Origin: Verrucomicrobiota bacterium
GTDB taxonomy: Bacteria; Verrucomicrobiota; Verrucomicrobiia; Limisphaerales; PALSA-1396
Direction: 5' to 3'
DNA: 64,000 nt
Assembly: GCA_016200005.1 (NCBI GenBank)
Contig: JACQFP010000026.1
Span: forward strand, 1 to 64,000
Shown: piece by piece, positions 2,922-13,650 of the stretch
Position numbering within the stretch: position 1 is the stretch's first letter
Layout: every line of letters begins with the position of its first letter
The notes under the pieces: model-generated
Databases searched by the model: none
What the model was told of the DNA's origin: nothing
Seen by the model: the letters and a program-made list of their open reading frames with translations, nothing else
Position numbers and translations under genes: made by a program

Positions 2922-4196
2922 GTGCAACGAATTGACTCACAAACAGTCGCTCATTCCAACCGAGCGTTGGAAAAACATCATCGACAAGACTTCAATGCGC
3001 TTGGCGAAATGCTGGCCCGGCGCGGCATCGACATAAAAACAATCACTACCGAATCGGCTCGATTCAAAGTTGCCTTGCCTTCGTGGGGATTCTCTCAAGG
3101 TGGAACGCGATTCGGTCGCTTTCCGATCTCCGGCGAGCCACGCAACGTCGCCGAAAAAATGTTCGATGCCGCGGTCGTGAACGACCTCACCGGCGTCACA
3201 CCGCGCATTTCAATTCACGTGCCGTGGGACAAACCGATTAATGCGACAAGCCTCAAAAGCCTGGCAAAACAACTTCGTCTCGGCTTCGACGCAATCAATT
3301 CCAACACCTTTCAAGATCAGCCCGACCAAAAATATTCGTACAAATTCGGTTCGCTGTCACACACCGAGCGTACCGTGCGCCGTCAAGCTATCGAGCATCA
3401 TCTCGAATGCATCGAGATTGGCCGCGCGTTGGGATCGAAGGCATTGACCGTTTGGCTGGCTGATGGCGGCAGCTTTCCAGGACAACAACATCTCCGCCGC
3501 GCGCTAGATCGGGTCATCGATTCGCTCGGAGAGATTTACTCGGCGTTGCCGAGAGACTGGCGGCTGTTCACTGAACACAAGCCGTTTGAACCCGCCTTCT
3601 ATTCAACGGTTGTTCAGGATTGGGGCACGTCGCTGATGATCGCGCAAGCGCTCGGCCCGCAGGCGGCGTGTCTCGTGGACCTCGGCCATCATCTGCCGAA
3701 CTGCAATGTCGAACAGGTCGTGGCGCGGTTGATTGCGGCGAACCGTCTCGGAGGATTTCATTTCAACGATTCCAAGTTCGCCGATGATGACCTGTCCGCC
3801 GCATCGATCAAACCCTATCAACTCTTTCTGATCTTCAACGAACTGGTTGATGCCGCCCGTGATCCACAGGTGAAGAAACTGCGTCCGCGTTTTCAACCTG
3901 CCTACATGATCGACCAATCTCACAACCTCAAAGACCCGATCGAAGACCTCGTCCTTTCAGCGATCGAGATTCATCGCGCCTTTACCAAGGCGCTGCTGGT
4001 AGATCGCGTGGCGTTGGCAAGGTATCAAGAGGCGAATGATGTCGTGATGGCCGAGCGAACGCTCAAGGTCGCGTATGAGACGGATGTGTCACCGATTCTC
4101 GCCGAGGTTCGTCGCCGGTGCGGTGCGGCGATTGATCCGCTCAACGTTTATCGACGCTCCGGTTATCGCCGTCAGAAAGCGAGCGAACGCAGCTAA
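2922..4196 (+). CDS. rhaI: L-rhamnose isomerase, Pseudomonas stutzeri/rhizobial type
   Basis: Converts L-rhamnose to L-rhamnulose; members of this TIM-barrel family are also known for broad aldose/ketose isomerisation. The 424-aa protein follows the P. stutzeri enzyme closely along its length (VPSWG-like ALPSWG, GGTRF, NSNTF, SYKFGSLSH, LECIEIG, SKALTVW). Likely metal ligands are visible: Glu218 in TEHK, Asp253 in VDLGHH, His280 in GFHFND and Asp331 in MIDQSHN. The start is a GTG without a clear ribosome site. It lies just after a sugar-binding lipoprotein gene, suggesting joint rhamnose uptake and catabolism, although no rhamnulokinase or aldolase gene is present in the window. Confidence 0.9.
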   Translation: MQRIDSQTVAHSNRALEKHHRQDFNALGEMLARRGIDIKTITTESARFKVALPSWGFSQGGTRFGRFPISGEPRNVAEKMFDAAVVNDLTGVTPRISIHVPWDKPINATSLKSLAKQLRLGFDAINSNTFQDQPDQKYSYKFGSLSHTERTVRRQAIEHHLECIEIGRALGSKALTVWLADGGSFPGQQHLRRALDRVIDSLGEIYSALPRDWRLFTEHKPFEPAFYSTVVQDWGTSLMIAQALGPQAACLVDLGHHLPNCNVEQVVARLIAANRLGGFHFNDSKFADDDLSAASIKPYQLFLIFNELVDAARDPQVKKLRPRFQPAYMIDQSHNLKDPIEDLVLSAIEIHRAFTKALLVDRVALARYQEANDVVMAERTLKVAYETDVSPILAEVRRRCGAAIDPLNVYRRSGYRRQKASERS

Positions 4197-4222
4197 GAGC
4201 GAGTACGAAAAAGCTCAATGGC

Positions 4223-4299
4223 TGTAGCCGACGACGTGAGGAGGCGGAGTTCCTCGCGAGAAATTCAAAACGGTCCGCCTCCTCACGTCGGCGGCTACA
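4223..4299. repeat. Dispersed palindrome, class A, copy 1
   Basis: A long inverted repeat: the arm at 4223-4248 (TGTAGCCGACGACGTGAGG...) is matched in reverse complement by 4274-4299 with 25 of 26 positions pairing, around a 25-base loop. It lies between converging genes. Similar elements occur at 8188-8259 and 24057-24130, with a solo arm at 45224-45250. No terminator-like T run follows. Confidence 0.8.
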
Positions 4300-4361
4300 A
4301 TTCCCGTACATGTTCCAAGCATCAAATTCCCACTGGCCTGATTAGTGGTCGGCTGAGACCG

Positions 4362-6461
4362 TCATTCCCTCATCAACACCTTCGTCGCGGTCACGTGCTT
4401 CATCAGTTCCTTCTTGCGCAGGAAATAAGTCGGGTTCGCTTTGCTCTTGCTGTAGAGTTTTTCGGCCTGATCATCCCAATGCCCGCTCTCCTTGTGATCA
4501 CTGGCACCCAGCGGCACAATGGTGTATGACTCCGGCGGATCGGTCATGATGACAATCTGCGTCGAGGTCTGACCGCCACGACCCACCATTTCCTTGCCGA
4601 CCTTGACATATCCAGTCGCTTTGGTCGTGGACATGCCGGCTTCGGCGACCGATCCTCCGCTCGTCGGCCAGGCGCGATCTCCACCTTCGCGACCGACGCG
4701 GAAATATGTTCCATACGGAACGTGAAGTGAGTTGAAATTGCTCTTCAGCCATGCCGCCCCTTTGTTCAACCCCTCGATCAACTGTTCATCCGTCACGTCG
4801 GACGGCAGATTATACTTTACGGCCAATTCGCCGCCCAATCCCTTTTTGAACGCATAATACGCCAGCGCCCCTTCGGAATCCGCTTGGCTGCGGCGGTTCC
4901 ACTTCTCGATCAACCCATACACTTCCGTCGCGTCGGGTTTCTTGTCGGTCGCCTTCGCCCACGCTTCCTTCAAGCGCGCCTGCCACTGCTCCGCGTGATA
5001 CACTTGGGGATTGAAGGCGATGTCCAACGCCTTCTCCACCGTCACGTCGTGCGCCGCGTCGAGCAACTCGGTCATCATCTCGGCGCGTTGATGACGCGGC
5101 ATGTCGCGCGTGGCGTTGTAAATGTACGGAAACTTGGAAAAACTTTCTGGCGTCAAAGGACTGTCCTTCATCATTCCGAATGGCGTCACGTTGTTGTTGT
5201 GCATGTAGCCTTGCGGTGGATTCTTGATTTGCACCAAGTCTGAGAACGGATGAATCCCGCGCCATTCGTTGGCCGACGTGTTGCCGGGAATCGGCTTGCG
5301 CGGATCGGTGCCGGGCGCGCGAATCGGCACGCGGCCATTACGCACGTAATAAATATCGCCCTGCACCGTGGCGACCATCAGGTTCTGCGCCATCAACTGC
5401 AAGTGGCCGAGCGCCCGTTTCATTTTCTCCAGGTTGCGCGCCATCATCGTCTCGTAAGTCTGATCCGTCAGACCAATCTGGTCCATGTACGGAATCGCCA
5501 TCGCGTAAGCCTTGCCGTTCTTGTGCGCCACAATCGGCCCATGATGACTGTATTCAATTTCCACTTCCTTCCAATCCAACTTCTCCTTTGTCTTCACGCC
5601 GATTTTCTCCTTGCGCACCGTCATGTCGCGCCACTTGCCGTCGTAACGATACTGCCGCGGATTGTCCGGATTCAATTCCTCTTCAAAAATGTCCGATGTG
5701 TCGGGGCCACCCGTGGTCATCGCCAGCGAACAATAACGGCTATGGGCAATGCTCGGCAGCGGCGAACCGAGAACCGAAATGCCCGACGCGTTGTAATCGC
5801 CCGCGTAAATCCGCACCTGATAAAAACGAAATTCCCCATACCAGCTCAAATGGGGATCCAGCACGGCAATCGGTACCTTCATCGCGGTGCGACTCGGCGC
5901 GAGCAGAATTTCATTCGAGCCGCGATACCCCATGTCATCCGGTTGAATGCCCGCCCGCAACAGATCGCCACCCGCTTCGCCCAGCGGCCAGCCCCAGATG
6001 ATGTGACGCCCCAGCGCCACCACGTCCGTCGGATGAATCTCCTGCGCCCACGCTGGCACCTGTTCCGGATGCTCCTTCATGAAGCGCTTCACACCGTCGA
6101 TGTAAGCCTCGAGCACCGCTCGCATCTTCGGACTGATCTCGCTGTATTTCTCCCGGCTGATCGCATCGTGCCGCCACATCCGTTGAATCAAATCATCCCG
6201 GTAAAAACTCGGCCCGAAGACCTCCGACATAGTGCCGGTCGCGCGCCGATAATTCTTCAACAACTCCTCCAACCGGTCTTCCGCTTGAGCGTAACCGATG
6301 GCATACGCCGCCGTCGCCAGATCAGCGGCGAACACGTGCGGCACGCCGAATTCATCCCGGTAAATGGTGGCCTCATGCTTCGCTGTGGCCAGTGCTCGAT
6401 CCGGAGAGGTTATCGGCAGGACGAACGATAACGCGAGTGCGATCAGCAAGGTTTTTTTCAT
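4362..6461 (-). CDS. Penicillin acylase family protein (Ntn hydrolase)
   Basis: Secreted N-terminal-nucleophile amidohydrolase of the penicillin/acyl-homoserine-lactone acylase family, about 699 aa. I chose the start at MKKTLL (ATG 6461) because a signal peptide follows directly; an upstream in-frame ATG at 6503 would add 14 residues before it. The alpha-subunit region carries DEFGVPHV and [13 protein letters not shown]. The self-processing site is probably the Ser182-Asn183 of [12 protein letters not shown], followed by the family pattern VLDPHL. Later segments [10 protein letters not shown] and YRYDGKW also fit. The natural substrate (a beta-lactam, an N-acyl amino acid or an AHL) cannot be told from sequence. 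It stands alone, convergent with rhaI. Confidence 0.9.
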
Positions 6462-6899
6462 TTGAGATATTCTATTACCCTGCAGCGATTCGTCATCCAT
6501 CATGCATCATGCAATGATGTGGCGATACTGCGGTTCAAGCTTGTAACGTTTCAACGTGCCAACCAGTTACAGATTAGACGCTTCAACGAGCCGCCCGACG
6601 TTTTGCCAAAGCCATGGGCAAGCGCCCTCGCTGCGAACAGAAGCAAGCGACCAGTGTTGGTCAAAGAAGTCGGGTTCGGCCACAACCGGACATTGATCCG
6701 TTTTTGATCTGCCGTCTGGGAACCAATTGGCGGCCTGGACATCGTACGTCGGGTAGAGTCCACTCCGGCCTTCGACCGCTAACGGCATGAGGAAGGAGAG
6801 TTTTGCTCAGGAAACAGAATTGTGAAACGAAATCCGGAACCAAGCAACGATGGCCACCAACTTTGACACGTTCAACAAACACAAAAAGGAAAAGCGTAT
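6462..6899. other. Divergent intergenic region
   Basis: About 440 bp separates the divergently transcribed acylase and TIGR03118 genes, so it should hold promoters for both. The small open frames in it show no clear domain, and I see no strong palindromes. An AAGGA ribosome-binding site sits at its right end, 8 nt before the ATG at 6900. Confidence 0.5.
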
Positions 6900-8018
6900 A
6901 TGAAAGAGAAATTCAATTGCTCACGAAAGCTGATCTTCGCCGGGTTGTTGGCGCTCGCTGCCCTGCCAACAAAATCGCAGGCCGTCATCAGCACCAACCA
7001 GGGCTACGTCCAGGTGGACCTGGTTTCCGACTCCGATACCAATGCGGCTCAGCTCGACCCGCAATTGCTGAACCCGTGGGGGATTGTCGCGGGGCCGGGC
7101 GCGGTATGGATCAACGACAATCACTCCAGCCAAATCGCCACTTACGGCCCCTTGGGCAAGCCATTGAAATACAAGGTCCATGTTCCCGCGCCCGGCGGTG
7201 GAGATGGCGCGCCAACGGGACTGGTGTTTAATGACACCGCGCAGTTCGTGATCACGAATGGCATGCAGCAAAGTCCAGCCACCTTCCTCCTCGCCACGGA
7301 GGACGGCACCATTGCCGCCTGGAATAATTCCGTGACCGGCACCAACGCCATGATTGTCGTGGACAATTCTGGATCGGGGGCCGTTTACAAAGGCTTGGCC
7401 ATCGTGCGGGATGCCGACGGCGCACCCCAAGTTTACGCTGCGGATTTCCACAATGGCAAGGTCGATGTCTATGACGGCCAGTTCCATTTCGTGAAGTCCT
7501 TTACGGATCCGGACGTGCCGCTGCTGTTCGCGCCGTTCAATGTGCGCAACATTCGCGGCCGGGTGTTTGTGACCTTCGCCAAGCAACTCCTGCCGGACAA
7601 GGAAGATGACCAGGCAGGGTTGGGAAATGGGTTTGTGGATATTTTCGACACCGACGGCACCTTGCTCCGTCGCTTTGCCTCCCAAGGCACGCTCAATTCG
7701 CCTTGGGGCATGGCCATCGCCCCACGGAATTTCGGTCACTTTAGCCACGCCCTTCTCGTCGGCAATTTTGGCGATGGCCGGATCAATGCCTACGATCTGC
7801 TCACCGGCAAATTCCTCGGCCAGCTCAAGGATGCCAACGGCGATGTCATCGAAATTGAAGGGCTATGGGGACTGACCTTCGACCGCGACGAACAATTCGA
7901 ACGCGAGTCCAGTTACATCGCACAACGCCTCTACTTTACGGCCGGCACAAACGATGAAGCCGACGGACTCTTCGGATTCATCCGCCCGATCAGCCCATTC
8001 CTCCCAGCCGCACGCTGA
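6900..8018 (+). CDS. TIGR03118 family exported beta-propeller protein
   Basis: 372 aa with an N-terminal signal peptide (basic start, hydrophobic FAGLLALAALPTKSQA). The mature protein matches the TIGR03118 pattern I know: an opening LVSDSDTNAAQLDPQLLNPWGI, then blade-like segments VYAADFHNGKVDVYD, GFVDIFDTDG, LNSPWGMAIAP and LLVGNFGDGRINAYD, ending with LYFTAGTNDEADGLFG. These are NHL/SMP-like propeller repeats; the function of the family is not established. Many members end in a PEP-CTERM signal, but this one does not. The ATG has a good AAGGA site upstream. The gene stands alone and is followed by two hairpins. Confidence 0.85.
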   Translation: MKEKFNCSRKLIFAGLLALAALPTKSQAVISTNQGYVQVDLVSDSDTNAAQLDPQLLNPWGIVAGPGAVWINDNHSSQIATYGPLGKPLKYKVHVPAPGGGDGAPTGLVFNDTAQFVITNGMQQSPATFLLATEDGTIAAWNNSVTGTNAMIVVDNSGSGAVYKGLAIVRDADGAPQVYAADFHNGKVDVYDGQFHFVKSFTDPDVPLLFAPFNVRNIRGRVFVTFAKQLLPDKEDDQAGLGNGFVDIFDTDGTLLRRFASQGTLNSPWGMAIAPRNFGHFSHALLVGNFGDGRINAYDLLTGKFLGQLKDANGDVIEIEGLWGLTFDRDEQFERESSYIAQRLYFTAGTNDEADGLFGFIRPISPFLPAAR

Positions 8019-8070: not shown

Positions 8071-8187
8071 GCTTCGCATCAACGCCACACAAATTCGCTC
8101 TCCTCCACTGAGGAAAGCGTCAGGGTAAGAATTCCCACAAGAATTTCGCTCATTGAACCCGAACCCCGACTCCGAGTCGGAACTGGC

Positions 8188-8259
8188 CGTAGCAGCCGAC
8201 GTGAGTCGGCTCTGACTTTCATCAAATTCAGATGGAGCGGACTCACGTCCGCTGCTACG
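8188..8259. repeat. Dispersed palindrome, class A, copy 2
   Basis: Arms 8188-8211 and 8236-8259 pair at 22 of 24 positions. Each arm is itself a small hairpin (AGCCGAC-GTGA-GTCGGCT on the left, AGCGGACTCACGTCCGCT on the right), so the element can fold as one long stem or as two short ones, in the style of REP/BIME elements. Confidence 0.75.
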
Positions 8260-8287
8260 AGGTTCACGGCGAGGAGTCGAATCTCGC

Positions 8288-8408
8288 TCAGTTATCCAGC
8301 GGACTGCGCACCCCAAGAACCGGCCTCTGCATCACATGGGTGTAAATCTGCGTCGTCGTCACATCCTTGTGTCCGAGTAACGCCTGGGCGGTCCGGATGT
8401 GTGAATGG
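8288..8408 (-). pseudogene. C-terminal fragment of an integron-type tyrosine recombinase
   Basis: The last 40 or so codons of this minus-strand frame read [23 protein letters not shown] and end GVRSPLDN. This is the hallmark C-terminus of integron integrases (the LLGH segment, the catalytic tyrosine in IYTHV, and the GVRSPLD tail). Nothing recognisable of the rest of the enzyme is upstream. Instead the frame runs into the 3' end of the ceramidase-like gene. It is therefore a remnant missing most of the catalytic domain, and it cannot be active by itself. Confidence 0.75.
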
Positions 8409-8420
8409 TGGTTTTGTTGT

Positions 8421-9845
8421 TCAGGGGCTGGTTCCTTTGCCGATTGTTCCAGGTGGTTTGGCAAGCAGCAAGTGCAACCCGGCTTGCGCGGTCTCAATCA
8501 AACGCTCCAGCCCGCCGCTGGCGAAGGGCGTCTGCCACACGGTGTAGAGGTCATGACCGTAGCAATCGCCTGGCGGCAGATAACCGAGATGGCCGTTGCC
8601 GATGTTGAGCACGAGCAGCGGCGTCTCGGGAAAGGCCGCGCGCAGTTGGGTCTGTAAAACGGAGTAAGCCTCGAACGGCACCGCACAGAGCGCGGCATCG
8701 CCGAGCCGCCAGAGCCAGAACTGTTCCGTGGACACGTCGTTATCGCCGACGGAACTGCGCACCCGACGTTGTCGCAGCAGACGCTCGTATTGAAACCCCG
8801 TGGGCTGGCGGGCGAGCGCGGCATCAATCTCGGCCACCGACGGCAGGTCGCGCTTCAGAGCCAACGGCAGACGTGGCGCACTCGCGCGCAGCACCTCGCT
8901 GAGGTCGCCTTCAGCGGCACGCCACACCGCCAGCGGCGCGCCCGACTCCACTGTGGACTCGAAGTTCAGACGCGAACAGCCCGATTCCAACGGCGCAAGC
9001 GCGGAGAGCGCGGCGTGGCCAAGCTCCCGGCCATGACGGTCGGCCAGGTTCACATCGCCGCTGTATTGCTCTGCCGGCGCGAGTTCGCCGCTCGCGCCTT
9101 GCAGGAACAAACACGGCGCGCCACCCGACTGCGACTCCACCAACTCGCGCATCGCGCCGGGGTAATCCGGCGAGAGCAGCGGGTTATCCCACGCGAGCGT
9201 GGTGGGATGGCAGGCGTAGTTCACAAGCGTGCCGAGCGTGCGGCCATCCTCGCCGAACAACCGCGCGACGAGGAGCGTGTCATCGGCGGCGGACTCCGGA
9301 TTGAACCCGGTGAGAAAGCGTTCCGGGTTCGCCGGGTCAATCAAGTCGCGTTGCGTGGCCAGGGCGCAATGACCGTGATTGAACAGCGCCGTGGCGGGCT
9401 GGAGTTTTGCCAGCGCGTCGCGTCCGCCTTGGACGCAAGCTTCGGCCAGCCAGGCCAGGTAGGCGCGCGCGGCCTCGGGATTCGCCTCCGGCGGCGCGTC
9501 TGAATCCAGCGCCGGCCCGGCGTGGGTGTGCGAGAGATGAATGATGAGATTCGCATCCGGCAACGCGAGTTCTGTCAGCACGCGCTGGCGAGCCGTGTCG
9601 GCATCCTTGCGGCTGCGCCACCATCCGAGTTCGAGGCTGATGAGCACCAGTGGACTTCCCCCTCTGCTCAACAGCGCGAGGGCCAGGGCCGTGCCGGTGA
9701 GCCGGCGATGCACGCCCGTGGTGAACCACTGTTTCGCCGCGCCCCAATTGCGCGCGTACGCTCCGGCGGGCGGCGTGATGTCCCAGCGGCTCAGGCCGAC
9801 CCGGGCGCGGAAGCCGCGGAAGCGTTCGTGGTGGCGGGGGTTCAT
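8421..9845 (-). CDS. Neutral/alkaline ceramidase-like (PF04734-like) hydrolase
   Basis: 474 aa from ATG 9845 (MNPRHHERF); a longer frame to 9947 is open, but its start region is copied DNA seen elsewhere. Features of the neutral ceramidase N-terminal domain family are [19 protein letters not shown] at the start, [13 protein letters not shown] with its His-X-His metal site, [26 protein letters not shown], and [14 protein letters not shown] near the end. The family hydrolyses N-acyl amides such as ceramide, but many bacterial members are uncharacterised. No signal peptide is evident. The 5' end of this gene occurs twice more upstream (10647-10875 and 11600-11631), implying insertions between it and the SDR gene with which it was probably once contiguous. 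Confidence 0.75.
9617..9845 (-). repeat. Direct repeat, copy 1: 5' end of ceramidase-like gene
   Basis: The first 76 codons of the gene are repeated in the same orientation at 10647-10875. By eye about nine positions in ten are identical, so the copies are not recent exact duplicates. Confidence 0.85.
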
Positions 9846-9931
9846 GGGTTCACGGTTTGTTTGCTGGTTCTCGCAGCGGCGTCTCGCCGCCATTGAGCGG
9901 AGTGGCGCAACGGCTCTCAGCTTGCGGGGAA

Positions 9932-10342
9932 CTATCTTGATTTCCACGGGTTGACCGTGGCCACGCCGGAAAAATGTTTCTCATTCCGGGTAATCACCGT
10001 CAAGCCACTGCTCCGAGCGATGGCCGCGATCAAAGAATCATCGTAGGGCGGAAGTGCGTCACGGCATTCAGCCATGAGCCTGCCCCATTCCGCCGCTGCC
10101 GCCTCGTCAAAAACAAAAATCGCCTCCCGATAATCCTCCAGAATGAAATCGTAAGTCCGTTCCAACTTCGCCCGCGCCTTCGGGTTGGCTTTGAGTTCGA
10201 TGCCCCGGCGCATTTCCGCCAGCGTGAGTGTGGAAATACCAACCTGCCCGCGATGTTTCGCGAACCAGTCCTTGACTGGGTTGCCCGGACGAAAATAGTC
10301 GCTGACGGTGTTCGTGTCCGTGAGGTATTTCAGAACCGGCAT
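9932..10342 (-). CDS. vapC: PIN-domain toxin of a type II toxin-antitoxin pair (VapC-like)
   Basis: 136-aa PIN-domain ribonuclease, expected to cleave RNA (tRNA or rRNA in known VapC proteins). The acidic set is present: Asp9 in LTDTNTVSDY, Glu43 in LAEMRRG, Asp101/Asp102 in PPYDDSLIAA, plus Asn120 in TRNEKHF. The start codon lies inside the end of the antitoxin gene (13-bp overlap), the usual translational coupling. The pair sits between two copies of the ceramidase gene start, so it looks inserted. Confidence 0.9.
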   Translation of the reverse strand: MPVLKYLTDTNTVSDYFRPGNPVKDWFAKHRGQVGISTLTLAEMRRGIELKANPKARAKLERTYDFILEDYREAIFVFDEAAAAEWGRLMAECRDALPPYDDSLIAAIARSSGLTVITRNEKHFSGVATVNPWKSR

Positions 10343-10575
10343 GGCGGCACTTTCTTCTGGGGTAGCGGTTCAAACGCAAACCCTTCCTCCGCCAACGCCG
10401 CCAGATGGTCGGCCAAATCGCGCGTGGCGGCTTTCACTTCCCGGACCCGGCGTCGCGGCTGCGGTGCGGGTTCAATCCACCAGCCGTTGCTCTTTTTCTT
10501 GACCAGGTAACGCGCGCCATTGCGGACGCCACGCACGGTCAATCGGTTCTTGTCTGCGGTACAAATAGTCGTCAC
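10330..10575 (-). CDS. Antitoxin partner of the VapC-like toxin
   Basis: 81-aa protein starting at GTG 10575 (VTTICTADKNRLTVRG). The N-terminal part resembles an AbrB-like beta fold (NRLTVRGVRNGARYLVKKK), and the C-terminal part is a helical toxin-binding tail ending VPPCRF, a tail I associate with antitoxins in this phylum. The frame is open further upstream into the duplicated ceramidase fragment, which would give a 186-aa fusion, but the antitoxin fold begins at the GTG. The 3' end overlaps the toxin ATG. Confidence 0.75.
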   Translation of the reverse strand: MTTICTADKNRLTVRGVRNGARYLVKKKSNGWWIEPAPQPRRRVREVKAATRDLADHLAALAEEGFAFEPLPQKKVPPCRF

Positions 10576-10646
10576 TTGGGAAATTTCCCATGCCGCCAAG
10601 GCAATGCAAGGATGATTTTCCCGGTTGAAAAACGATGTGATTCCCC

Positions 10647-10875
10647 GCCACCAGCCGAGTTCGAACCTGATGACCAACAGCGGAATTCCCGCTCCGCTCA
10701 ACGGCGCGAGGGCCAGGGCCGTGCCCGTAAGCCGGCGATGCACGCCCGTGGCGAACCAATGTTTCGCCGCGCCCCAATTGCGCGCGTATGCTCCGGCGGG
10801 CGGCGTGATGTCCCACCGGCTCAGGCCGACCCGGGCGCGGAAGCCGCGGAAACGTTCGTGCAGGCGGGGGCTCAT
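10647..10875 (-). pseudogene. 5' fragment of the ceramidase-like gene (copy 2)
   Basis: Encodes [20 protein letters not shown] and onward, matching residues 1-76 of the gene at 8421-9845. It then runs into unrelated sequence after ELGWWR. It is broken and cannot make the enzyme, but its frame stays open into the antitoxin gene. It follows the DUF6985 gene stop by only about 20 bp. Confidence 0.8.
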
Positions 10876-10895
10876 GGTTCGCTCGAACAATCTTG

Positions 10896-10902
10896 GTTAG
10901 GC
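10896..10902 (-). other. Integron-like core site (GCCTAAC) at the DUF6985 stop codon
   Basis: On the minus strand the heptamer GCCTAAC includes the TAA stop of the DUF6985 gene. It fits the attC R'' consensus RYYYAAC, and in integron cassettes R'' often overlaps the stop codon. A small palindrome (GTTCGAGCGAAC) follows, but no matching R' site is found within about 150 bp. Confidence 0.35.
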
Positions 10903-11451
10903 TTTGTAAACAACATTTTCAAGACTGTCATCTGCATAGGCATCCGAGTTAGTGAGGTGGCCATCATATGGCCCGACCTTAACCACTTTTAGACCGTTCT
11001 TAAAGACGATCTGCATTCCGTGCTCCTCCTCCCAGTCGCAACCGCACTCAAGGGAAATGTAAATCCCTTTGTCTCCATTCCTCCGACGAGAAACCGTCGG
11101 CTCACTTCCGAACTGCACATGCGTCCATATATCACTCGGTGACTTGATCGGCTTGAACTCATCATCATAAGTTTTCCAATCCTTTTCATAATCCTTGTAA
11201 TATTGGAAAACATATCCTTCCGCCTCCTTCAGAGCAGTGGCATCGAGGGAAAGGAAGTTTGCAATGGCAGCTTCGAACTCAGCCTTCTTCTTGTCTGTGT
11301 TATATCCTGCTAAGCAAATCGCACACAACTTCCCACCAAGCACTGGTATCGGCACTGGCTTTCTGCGCCGGTGGGGAAAGAAATATACTTTGAGAATCAA
11401 CGCCCACCAGACAACAAGCGGAACAAGCAATATGAGTGCAGCTATTTTCAC
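10897..11451 (-). CDS. DUF6985-like protein with one N-terminal membrane helix
   Basis: About 184 aa. The start is uncertain: TTG 11475 opens the frame, but GTG 11451 lies 3 bp after the GTTAGGC core motif, as expected for a cassette gene, and I prefer it. One membrane segment (IAALILLVPLVVWWALIL) and a basic stretch HRRRK are followed by LCAICLAGYN, a helical region, and a C-terminal domain with CGCDWEEEHGMQIVF and VGPYDGH. The last part matches the DUF6985 pattern as I know it. That domain is of unknown function and often appears in small accessory or immunity-like proteins. No enzyme motif is seen. Confidence 0.6.
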   Translation of the reverse strand: MKIAALILLVPLVVWWALILKVYFFPHRRRKPVPIPVLGGKLCAICLAGYNTDKKKAEFEAAIANFLSLDATALKEAEGYVFQYYKDYEKDWKTYDDEFKPIKSPSDIWTHVQFGSEPTVSRRRNGDKGIYISLECGCDWEEEHGMQIVFKNGLKVVKVGPYDGHLTNSDAYADDSLENVVYKA

Positions 11452-11454
11452 AAA

Positions 11455-11461
11455 GCCTAAC
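11455..11461 (-). other. Integron-like core site (GTTAGGC) before the DUF6985 gene
   Basis: On the minus strand GTTAGGC fits the attC/attI R' consensus GTTRRRY and lies immediately before the gene. Just upstream is a near-perfect inverted repeat (CGGCCAAAC at 11514-11506 with GTTTGGCCG at 11476-11468), which could be the L''/L' stem of an attC-like site. A matching R'' (RYYYAAC) outside that stem is not clear. Confidence 0.35.
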
Positions 11462-11599
11462 CCAAATTCGGCCAAACGCGGGTTTGGTCTAGCGCGGCGT
11501 AGTTTGGCCGAGTGCGTTTCATAGCCGCGAAACTTGAACTGGTTCCGCCGCAGCGGTCAAGGAGAGGTTTGGTCCATTCATAAGTGTACGAATTTCATT

Positions 11600-11631
11600 T
11601 CGCGAAAGCGTTCGTGGTAGCGGTGATTCAT
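11600..11631 (-). pseudogene. Start fragment of the ceramidase-like gene (copy 3)
   Basis: Right after the SDR stop (TGA, four bases, then ATG at 11631) the minus strand reads MNHRYHERFRE, the same start as the ceramidase-like gene, and then diverges and stops. This is where the intact gene should have followed the SDR gene. Confidence 0.65.
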
Positions 11632-11635
11632 GGGT

Positions 11636-12397
11636 TCATGATTTGACTACCGGACTGCGCAAGAGCGACAGGCCGCCATCGAGCAGCAGCGTGGACCCGG
11701 TGAGATTCCGATGCGAGGGCGAACACAAATAGGCGATGGCAGCGGCGACTTCGTCCGCCTCGATCAACTCGCCGACCGGCACGACGGCGGTCGAACGGGC
11801 CGCGAGCGCCGGATCCTTCTTGAAAAACTGTCCGCTCAAGCCGGCGTTCACATAGCCGGGTGCGACTTCGTTCACAAGGATGCCTTGGGCGGCGAGTTCC
11901 AGCGCGAGGCACTGGGTCAACATCCGCAAGCCGGCCTTCGCCGCGCAGTAAGCGGCCAGTTCCATGTGCGGTGCATGGCCCGCCCAACTGCCGACGAAGA
12001 CGATGCGTCCCGGCATTTTCTTTTCGATCAAGCGTCGCGCGCCGGTGCGAGCAGTGAGCCACGCGCCGGTGAGGTTTACGGCCATCGTGCGATTCCAGTC
12101 GTCCACCGTGGCCGCCAGCGCGCTGCCCAGGCAAACGATCCCTGCGTTCACCACGATGAGGGAGGCCGGCTCGCCAAAGGCCGCCTCCACCGCGCCAAAC
12201 CAGGCTTGGACGGAAGCCTCGCTCGCCACGTCCACGTGATGAACATGAAAGCCGTCGGTATTGCGACCGGCGTCGCGTAGATCACCGAGTGCCACCCGAC
12301 AGCCGGTCAGCTTCAGCGCGCGAGCCGTGGCGAGGCCGATGTCGCCCAGGCCGCCGCTGATGACGGCCACAGGTTGAGTTGGAAATGTCGTAGTCAT
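11636..12397 (-). CDS. Short-chain dehydrogenase/reductase (SDR) family protein
   Basis: Classical cytosolic NAD(P)-dependent oxidoreductase, 253 aa. It has the Rossmann glycine motif SGGLGDIG (14-21), a nucleotide-choice acid GDL near 38-40, NAG at 84-86, catalytic Ser137, Tyr150 and Lys154 (YCAAK), and the closing GSTLLLDGG. The substrate cannot be assigned. The stop codon is four bases from a broken copy of the ceramidase-like gene start, so the two genes were probably once an operon before the inserted DNA separated them. Confidence 0.9.
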   Translation of the reverse strand: MTTTFPTQPVAVISGGLGDIGLATARALKLTGCRVALGDLRDAGRNTDGFHVHHVDVASEASVQAWFGAVEAAFGEPASLIVVNAGIVCLGSALAATVDDWNRTMAVNLTGAWLTARTGARRLIEKKMPGRIVFVGSWAGHAPHMELAAYCAAKAGLRMLTQCLALELAAQGILVNEVAPGYVNAGLSGQFFKKDPALAARSTAVVPVGELIEADEVAAAIAYLCSPSHRNLTGSTLLLDGGLSLLRSPVVKS

Positions 12398-12532
12398 GAG
12401 AGGTTCGTTTCAGAATCTGTAGCTGGTTATTTGAAAAGCGGCCGACCTGAAATGCTTATAGCATCGGGTTGTCGAGTGCGGGTCGTGCGCCCGGCGCACG
12501 CCGTATAAACTCACAACCTCAAGCGCCCGCTT

Positions 12533-12822
12533 ATGAAAACAAACCACCTCGAAAGTGTAGTCTGCCTGCGCCTGGATGCCCATGCCAAATTCTCGCTGCT
12601 CGCCTGGCTGGATGACCAAAAGTCATCGGCGCGCTCACTGGCGCTTCCCGAGCCAGAGACGCAACTGATCAAAGACCTCCGGTTGATTCCCGCCACGACC
12701 AAGCTTATGGACCTCGAAGAATGTGGTCCGGGCGCTGGTTGGCACACGTGGTCCGGCCGCGCGTCACACGCGCGGTGGTGTGCGACCCGTGCGCAATCTA
12801 TGGCGAAGGCCCAGTGGGGCTA
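12533..12822 (+). pseudogene. IS110-like transposase, frameshifted N-terminal remnant
   Basis: The frame from ATG 12533 gives MKTNHLESVVCLRLDAHAKF and LIPATTKLMDLEECG, which resembles the N-terminus of IS110/IS116-type (DEDD) transposases with the first acid in LDAHAK. After LEECGPGAG the reading continues in another frame as WLAHVVRPRVTRAVVCDP, again family-like, so there is a frameshift near 12735. The homology stops after VVCDP, where such proteins normally continue; the rest of the gene is missing. Confidence 0.6.
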
Positions 12823-13200
12823 ACGCGGTTCGGTGCGCCGCTGGGTCAACAAGGCCCGTAACGGCAGCGTATCCAGGAGGCCGGGAGAGACCCAAACCTT
12901 CGGCGTGGAGGCACAGCAGTGACCTTCCCCGTAGCTGGCTGGTTCCTCTGGCCCGACAACTCCCCGATGACCTTGGGCCAGGTCAGTAGGACTGTGTGGG
13001 TGAGGAACCCGAGTCCCCCAAGTGTGCCTGGGCGCGCATCGTAGCGCATGGTCGCGTGGATCCGCCGAGAGTGCTGCCGGCAACTTGAAACCCAAAGACC
13101 GCGGTGTGGACACACGCCCCACGAAGCTTCTGACGAGCGTCTGGCGAAGCCAGGAGCGAAAGTTTCTGGTCTTCGCTACTTGGAAAACTTTGTCTTGACC
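12785..13200 (+). other. Unassigned structured region, possibly a group II intron 5' fragment
   Basis: From the point where the IS110 homology breaks, the sequence is GC-rich, without a credible protein, and begins with a GTGCGCAATC-like start that resembles the 5' end of bacterial group II introns. It can form several stems (for example CCCAG near 12810 with CTGGG near 12840). I found no domain V and no reverse transcriptase. The 168-aa minus-strand frame across it has no recognisable domain. Confidence 0.25.
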
Positions 13201-13650
13201 TCGCTTTTCATGTGCGCCGACGTAACGGGGCGGACCGTTGTGGGTGGAAGCGAAGGAGAATTCGCACCCACATGAACCACAAGATCGCTGGGTGGGTTTC
13301 CAACGAATTTCGAACACGAGGTTCATGGTGTCGAAACTCCAACTTTCTGGTGGGTGGAGTTCTCCTCATGTCTGCGACTGCGTTTTGAACGATTTGCCCG
13401 TGGGTATTTGTCCGCAGTCGAGATCGCACGTTGACGGTCGGCCTTAAAAACCACAGACTGTCGGCAACATTTGAGTGAATTGAAACAGCATGACGGCATC
13501 TCCCACCACACAGAATGCCCCTCATCCCGTCCCTCTCTCCATCCAATTGGGAGAGGTTGGCCGACAGGCCGGAGCAGAGGTGGGTTTGCAACATCCATCT
13601 TGAGAACTGTTCCATGGTAATCCAACAATCAAAACAGGAGTTTACGTAAA
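13201..13650. other. Intergenic DNA with a degenerate class B palindrome
   Basis: No gene is seen. Around 13518-13584 lies a worn version of the CCCTCACCC/GGGTGAGGG palindrome class. A ribosome-binding site AGGAG sits at 13636-13640, about ten bases before the TTG start of the next gene. Confidence 0.5.

Follow-up and report, generated by a model that had tools for sequence, protein, structure and literature searches.

The locus considered here, on the minus strand of a 64,000-nt stretch of a Verrucomicrobiota genome (the window), raises the question of whether a DUF6985 gene that begins and ends at motifs resembling integron core sites was once an integron cassette, or whether its boundaries have some other origin. 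The relevant features are collected in Table 1. The initial annotation placed GTTAGGC before the GTG start and GCCTAAC over the TAA stop, and both motifs are found exactly there (at 11461-11455, 3 nt ahead of the GTG at 11451, and at 10902-10896, respectively), the minus-strand order being ...AATTTGG GTTAGGC TTT GTG (start) ... GCC TAA (stop) C CAAGATTGTTCGAGCGAACC ATGAGC.... They agree with the R' consensus GTTRRRY near a gene start and the R'' consensus RYYYAAC at a gene's 3' end, and the 3-nt leader compares with leaders of 3-25 nt from R' to start in ten cassettes of relatives. The encoded protein consists of a hydrophobic N-terminus and the DUF6985 domain (an alternative TTG start at 11475 gives 192 aa), and the segment forms a low-GC island (46.8% vs 57.7%), nearly the lowest-GC segment. 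We consider it very probable that 10896-11461 is a DUF6985 integron cassette whose attC site is broken, whose local integrase has been lost, and which now lies stranded in the chromosome.

Table 1. Features of the DUF6985 locus and related sites in the same genome (window positions unless a contig is named)
Feature	Position	Strand	Remarks
Very probable body of an integron gene cassette, from R' to R''	10896..11461	-	GC 46.8%; single copy in genome
DUF6985 gene	10897..11451	-	184 aa from GTG; PF22481, E 9e-41
R' core GTTAGGC, cassette 5' end	11455..11461	-	
R'' core GCCTAAC, cassette 3' end	10896..10902	-	overlaps TAA stop
R''-spacer-L'' half of attC	10877..10902	-	GCCTAACCAAGATTGTTCGAGCGAAC; L'-R' half missing
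End inverted repeat, arm one (22 nt)	10889..10910	.	86%; inner 13 bp perfect
End inverted repeat, arm two (22 nt)	11447..11468	.	
Possible relic of preceding attC: 9-bp stem	11462..11522	-	arms 11502-11510 / 11469-11477
C-terminal remnant of integron integrase	8288..8404	-	about 37 aa; TIGR02249 52.9 bits
Complete ceramidase-like gene	from about 9845 down		start copy 9616-9847
Ceramidase-start copy	10646-10877		232 nt, 91%
Ceramidase-start copy	near 11601-11631 (or 11601-11640)		about 31 nt for the shorter span
Orphan attC, own genome	C35:169-261		
Orphan attC, own genome	C53:17225-17320		
Orphan attC, own genome	C4:476-571		
attC pair, own genome	C6 111538-111635 and 112387-112473		second weak

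The two ends of the segment (GGTTAGGCTTTGT and ACAAAGCCTAACC) are complementary to each other, the R boxes belonging to a longer pair that runs for 9 nt beyond GTT/AAC (AGGCTTTGT). Since such complementarity is a known property of cassettes, R'/R'' pairing extending to 9-11 nt in most of them (PMC2727003), we rejected the idea that it is a new one and use it here as a test. In a set of 50 cassettes from integrons of this order, each lying between two attC sites, the ends of one and the same cassette pair past the R boxes with a mean run of 5.24, against 1.96 for shuffled ends (0/5000) and 3.84 when ends are shuffled within a locus (0/5000); for cassettes all sharing AGGC, the extension is 2.88 nt against 0.92 by permutation (0/10000). 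The window segment's run of 9 is a length attained by the top 10% among real cassettes and by 0.4% of mismatched pairs, and the class 1 cassette aadA2 likewise has a run of 9.

What remains of a recombination site at these ends is a half. The sequence 3' of the DUF6985 stop resembles the R''-L'' arms of relatives' attC sites, the closest being GCCTAACAAAATCGGTCGAGCGAAC (L086:2909-3013), and the match is moderately significant (P about 0.02 given R''). Neither covariance model, R1 (built from 15 aligned attC sites, with a structure showing strong covariation) nor R2, finds a complete attC on either flank or anywhere in the window, which agrees with the earlier remark that complete sites are not visible. 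As the stem-loop-forming series R''-L''-L'-R' is represented only by its R''-L'' half, we classify the locus as a cassette relic and not as an intact cassette. The 5' flank bears no resemblance to an L'-R' half (P 0.31), and the two flanks joined as halves of one attC cofold no better than chance (21%). The 9-bp stem reported upstream does exist, and its spacings, 5 and 7 nt, are like those of attC sites, but models R1 and R2 do not recognize its region as attC; the best local model match in the window misreads the stem as R boxes and was set aside. An Rfam search of the region returned nothing relevant.

Where the R''-L'' half ends, a ceramidase-like gene's start follows directly, as one of three copies around the locus; a vapC-like toxin gene and its probable antitoxin lie between the first and second copies, and the cassette between the second and third. 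About 31-37 nt of this start recur, about 80% alike, on either side of the cassette. Behind each of the truncated copies lies a foreign gene (the vapC-like toxin region in one case, the DUF6985 cassette in the other), as if insertions had brought a duplication of their target. We also observe that one truncated copy is fused in frame to the probable antitoxin, forming a 186-aa ORF (10330-10890, minus strand) that adjoins the vapC-like PIN toxin at 9932-10342. A duplication together with a deletion at attC would explain the ceramidase copies around the cassette. The empty site could not be recovered from a congener (G001) by DNA search.

Integrons have left other traces in this lineage. The integron-type integrase C-terminus claimed nearby is indeed one, scoring 52.9 bits with the integron-integrase model against 33.0 with XerD; it ends in GVRSPLD, as do full integrases of relatives, and is the third such IntI remnant in the genome. 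Contigs C68 and C56 both begin inside an integron-integrase gene carrying the same in-frame TAA (L075 and L076, respectively, 1-270), and we read these starts as an intI pseudogene, with the assembly breaking at repeated intI. No full intI was found in the genome, though the assembly breaks exactly at intI, and the host lineage seems to have lost its integrase; in the window, the 37-aa fragment is all that stands for an intI with attI beside cassettes. Of 58 relatives, 19 have integron-integrase genes that score above the curated cut-off, genuine attC arrays adjoining several of these genes, and R1 matches attC sites in 42 of the 55 genomes of the order. The cores of the relatives' sites mostly read GCCTAAC and GTTAGGC, the very sequences present in the window. 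The genome itself holds orphan attC sites, and its pair on C6 encloses a 237-aa gene, that is, a two-site cassette. Immediately past GTT, the orphan sites on C35 (L149 169-261) and C6 (L133 1501-1598) both continue into GATATGGCTTAAATCTGTCAAGCGCACAGTT, which may come from an insertion sequence that targets attC or from a neighbor common to the two.

Other repeats in the window may be recorded here. The MITE- or REP-like sequence at 8121-8275 is one copy of a dispersed palindromic repeat (CGTAGCAGCCGACGTGAGTCGGCTC...GAGCGGACTCACGTCCGCTGCTACG) found about 40 times in the genome and a few times in the congener. The stretch 12419-13300 is a possible mobile-element remnant, with 12419-12472 being 93% alike in the congener and 13139-13234 being 89% alike on C35; it has no Rfam, Pfam or plasmid match.

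The DUF6985 family is sparse in the phylum (7 of 388 genomes, the window's own counted). It had been suggested that the gene be sought beside attC arrays in other genomes, and in genome G298 (contig C28) a DUF6985 gene lies exactly between attC sites at 1787-1660 and 1171-1043. The array comprises five sites, plus a weak sixth that the end of the contig truncates, and the gene's own cassette ends, GTTCGGC and GCCGAAC, match each other. Homologues are therefore not always found outside integrons, and the family does serve as cassette cargo, the G298 protein being only a distant relative of that in the window. In G252 and G183, DUF6985 adjoins attC arrays; at L191 (G252, 3297-7060) and L171 the gene beside the array has on its flanks two identical IS30-like transposase genes (330 aa) in opposite orientation. 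The nearest homologues are from Psychrobacter (56%) and Alkanindiges (about 50%), and no attC was found near these or near the homologues in G006 and G050; nor did the eleven remaining DUF6985 loci checked have convincing cassette ends. Phages and viral contigs yielded no DUF6985, and plasmids four distant matches. No sequence relative has a solved structure, and the AlphaFold model (pLDDT 66, low confidence) gave no convincing PDB fold match. The conserved stretch CDWEEEHG and the hydrophobic N-terminus of the window copy suggest a membrane-anchored accessory protein, and nothing more specific.

Could the ends be coincidental, those of an ordinary horizontally acquired gene that happens to carry two 7-bp motifs? 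The initial annotation allowed for this, and rightly in that degenerate 7-bp motifs are common, but the 13-nt perfect pairing goes beyond chance. Simulated windows of the same composition contain on average 0.03 R'/R'' pairs per strand whose inner run reaches 9 or more (2/60 runs, before requiring that both motifs bound one gene), yet here such a pair occupies both gene ends. The window does have one further long pair, with a run of 8 (40747/42614), within conserved genes. Because the run of 9 falls exactly on the gene ends and on a low-GC island, which also has an L''-like half site in place, and since most other DUF6985 loci are without such ends, we regard chance as very unlikely. A non-autonomous transposon or MITE-like unit, with the 22-nt repeats as its ends and a transposase encoded elsewhere, would account for a single gene lying between terminal inverted repeats that are perfect over 13 bp; this too is highly improbable, given that the unit is single copy with no related autonomous element, its end motif, absent from the rest of the 6.5 Mb genome, is exactly the attC core of relatives, no transposase lies nearby, and no clear short target duplication is visible by eye beside the repeats.

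More improbable still, indeed scarcely credible, is a cassette that remains mobile within a working integron, the 9-bp stem serving as a non-canonical attC upstream: the stem's spacings match attC geometry, but the outer bases of R'' do not fit, attC models miss the stem, the attC on the 3' side lacks a half, and the integrase sequences recovered from this genome are all fragments. Against a stranded cassette, in turn, stand the lack of a complete attC on either flank, a 5' flank unlike L'-R', the no more than moderate significance of the 3' half site, and the closest homologues without attC nearby, the cassette-borne G298 protein being distant. The earlier suggestion of a decayed or trapped cassette nevertheless gains support from the cassette ends, the half site, the GC island and the integron-rich clade, as well as from the genome's orphan attC sites and integrase remnants and the DUF6985 cassette elsewhere.

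The cassette would once have been a circle whose attC (R''-L''-L'-R') could be recombined by an IntI integrase, and would have entered this chromosome, most likely by horizontal acquisition. Its attC would have been cut after L'', where it now joins the ceramidase-start copy, and the local integrase lost except for C-terminal remnants, presumably in that order. Without a complete attC the cassette is probably no longer excisable, and it would persist in the chromosome as a gene whose DUF6985 product is probably membrane-anchored, its expression and role being presumptive. Integron cargo can in this way turn into an ordinary chromosomal gene once its recombination site breaks, here in an order rich in integrons, and DUF6985 now takes its place among such cargo. 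Complementarity specific to a cassette's own ends, together with R boxes at the gene ends, provides a signature for stranded cassettes. Were it recognizable after both attC and integrase are lost, bacterial chromosomes might hold a hidden layer of such cassettes identifiable by their self-complementary ends alone, with breaks after R''-L'' at repeated host-gene starts as a recurring route of fixation, an extension that we think rather unlikely.

Among known systems, the locus resembles integron gene cassettes with attC in having one gene between GTTRRRY and RYYYAAC, a very short leader, self-complementary ends, an R''-L'' half site and low GC, and differs from them in its incomplete attC, the lack of attI or integrase, and its position outside an array. 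With CALINs and single attC sites without integrase it has in common that it lies outside any integron and that its genome contains orphan attC sites; unlike them (a CALIN has two or more clustered attC sites and no intI), it has no complete attC, and attC-based finders would probably miss it. As in fused cassettes, where a cassette that has lost part of its attC becomes tied to its downstream neighbor (PMC4670013), attC is partly lost here, but the neighbor to which this cassette is joined is a chromosomal gene fragment and not another cassette.
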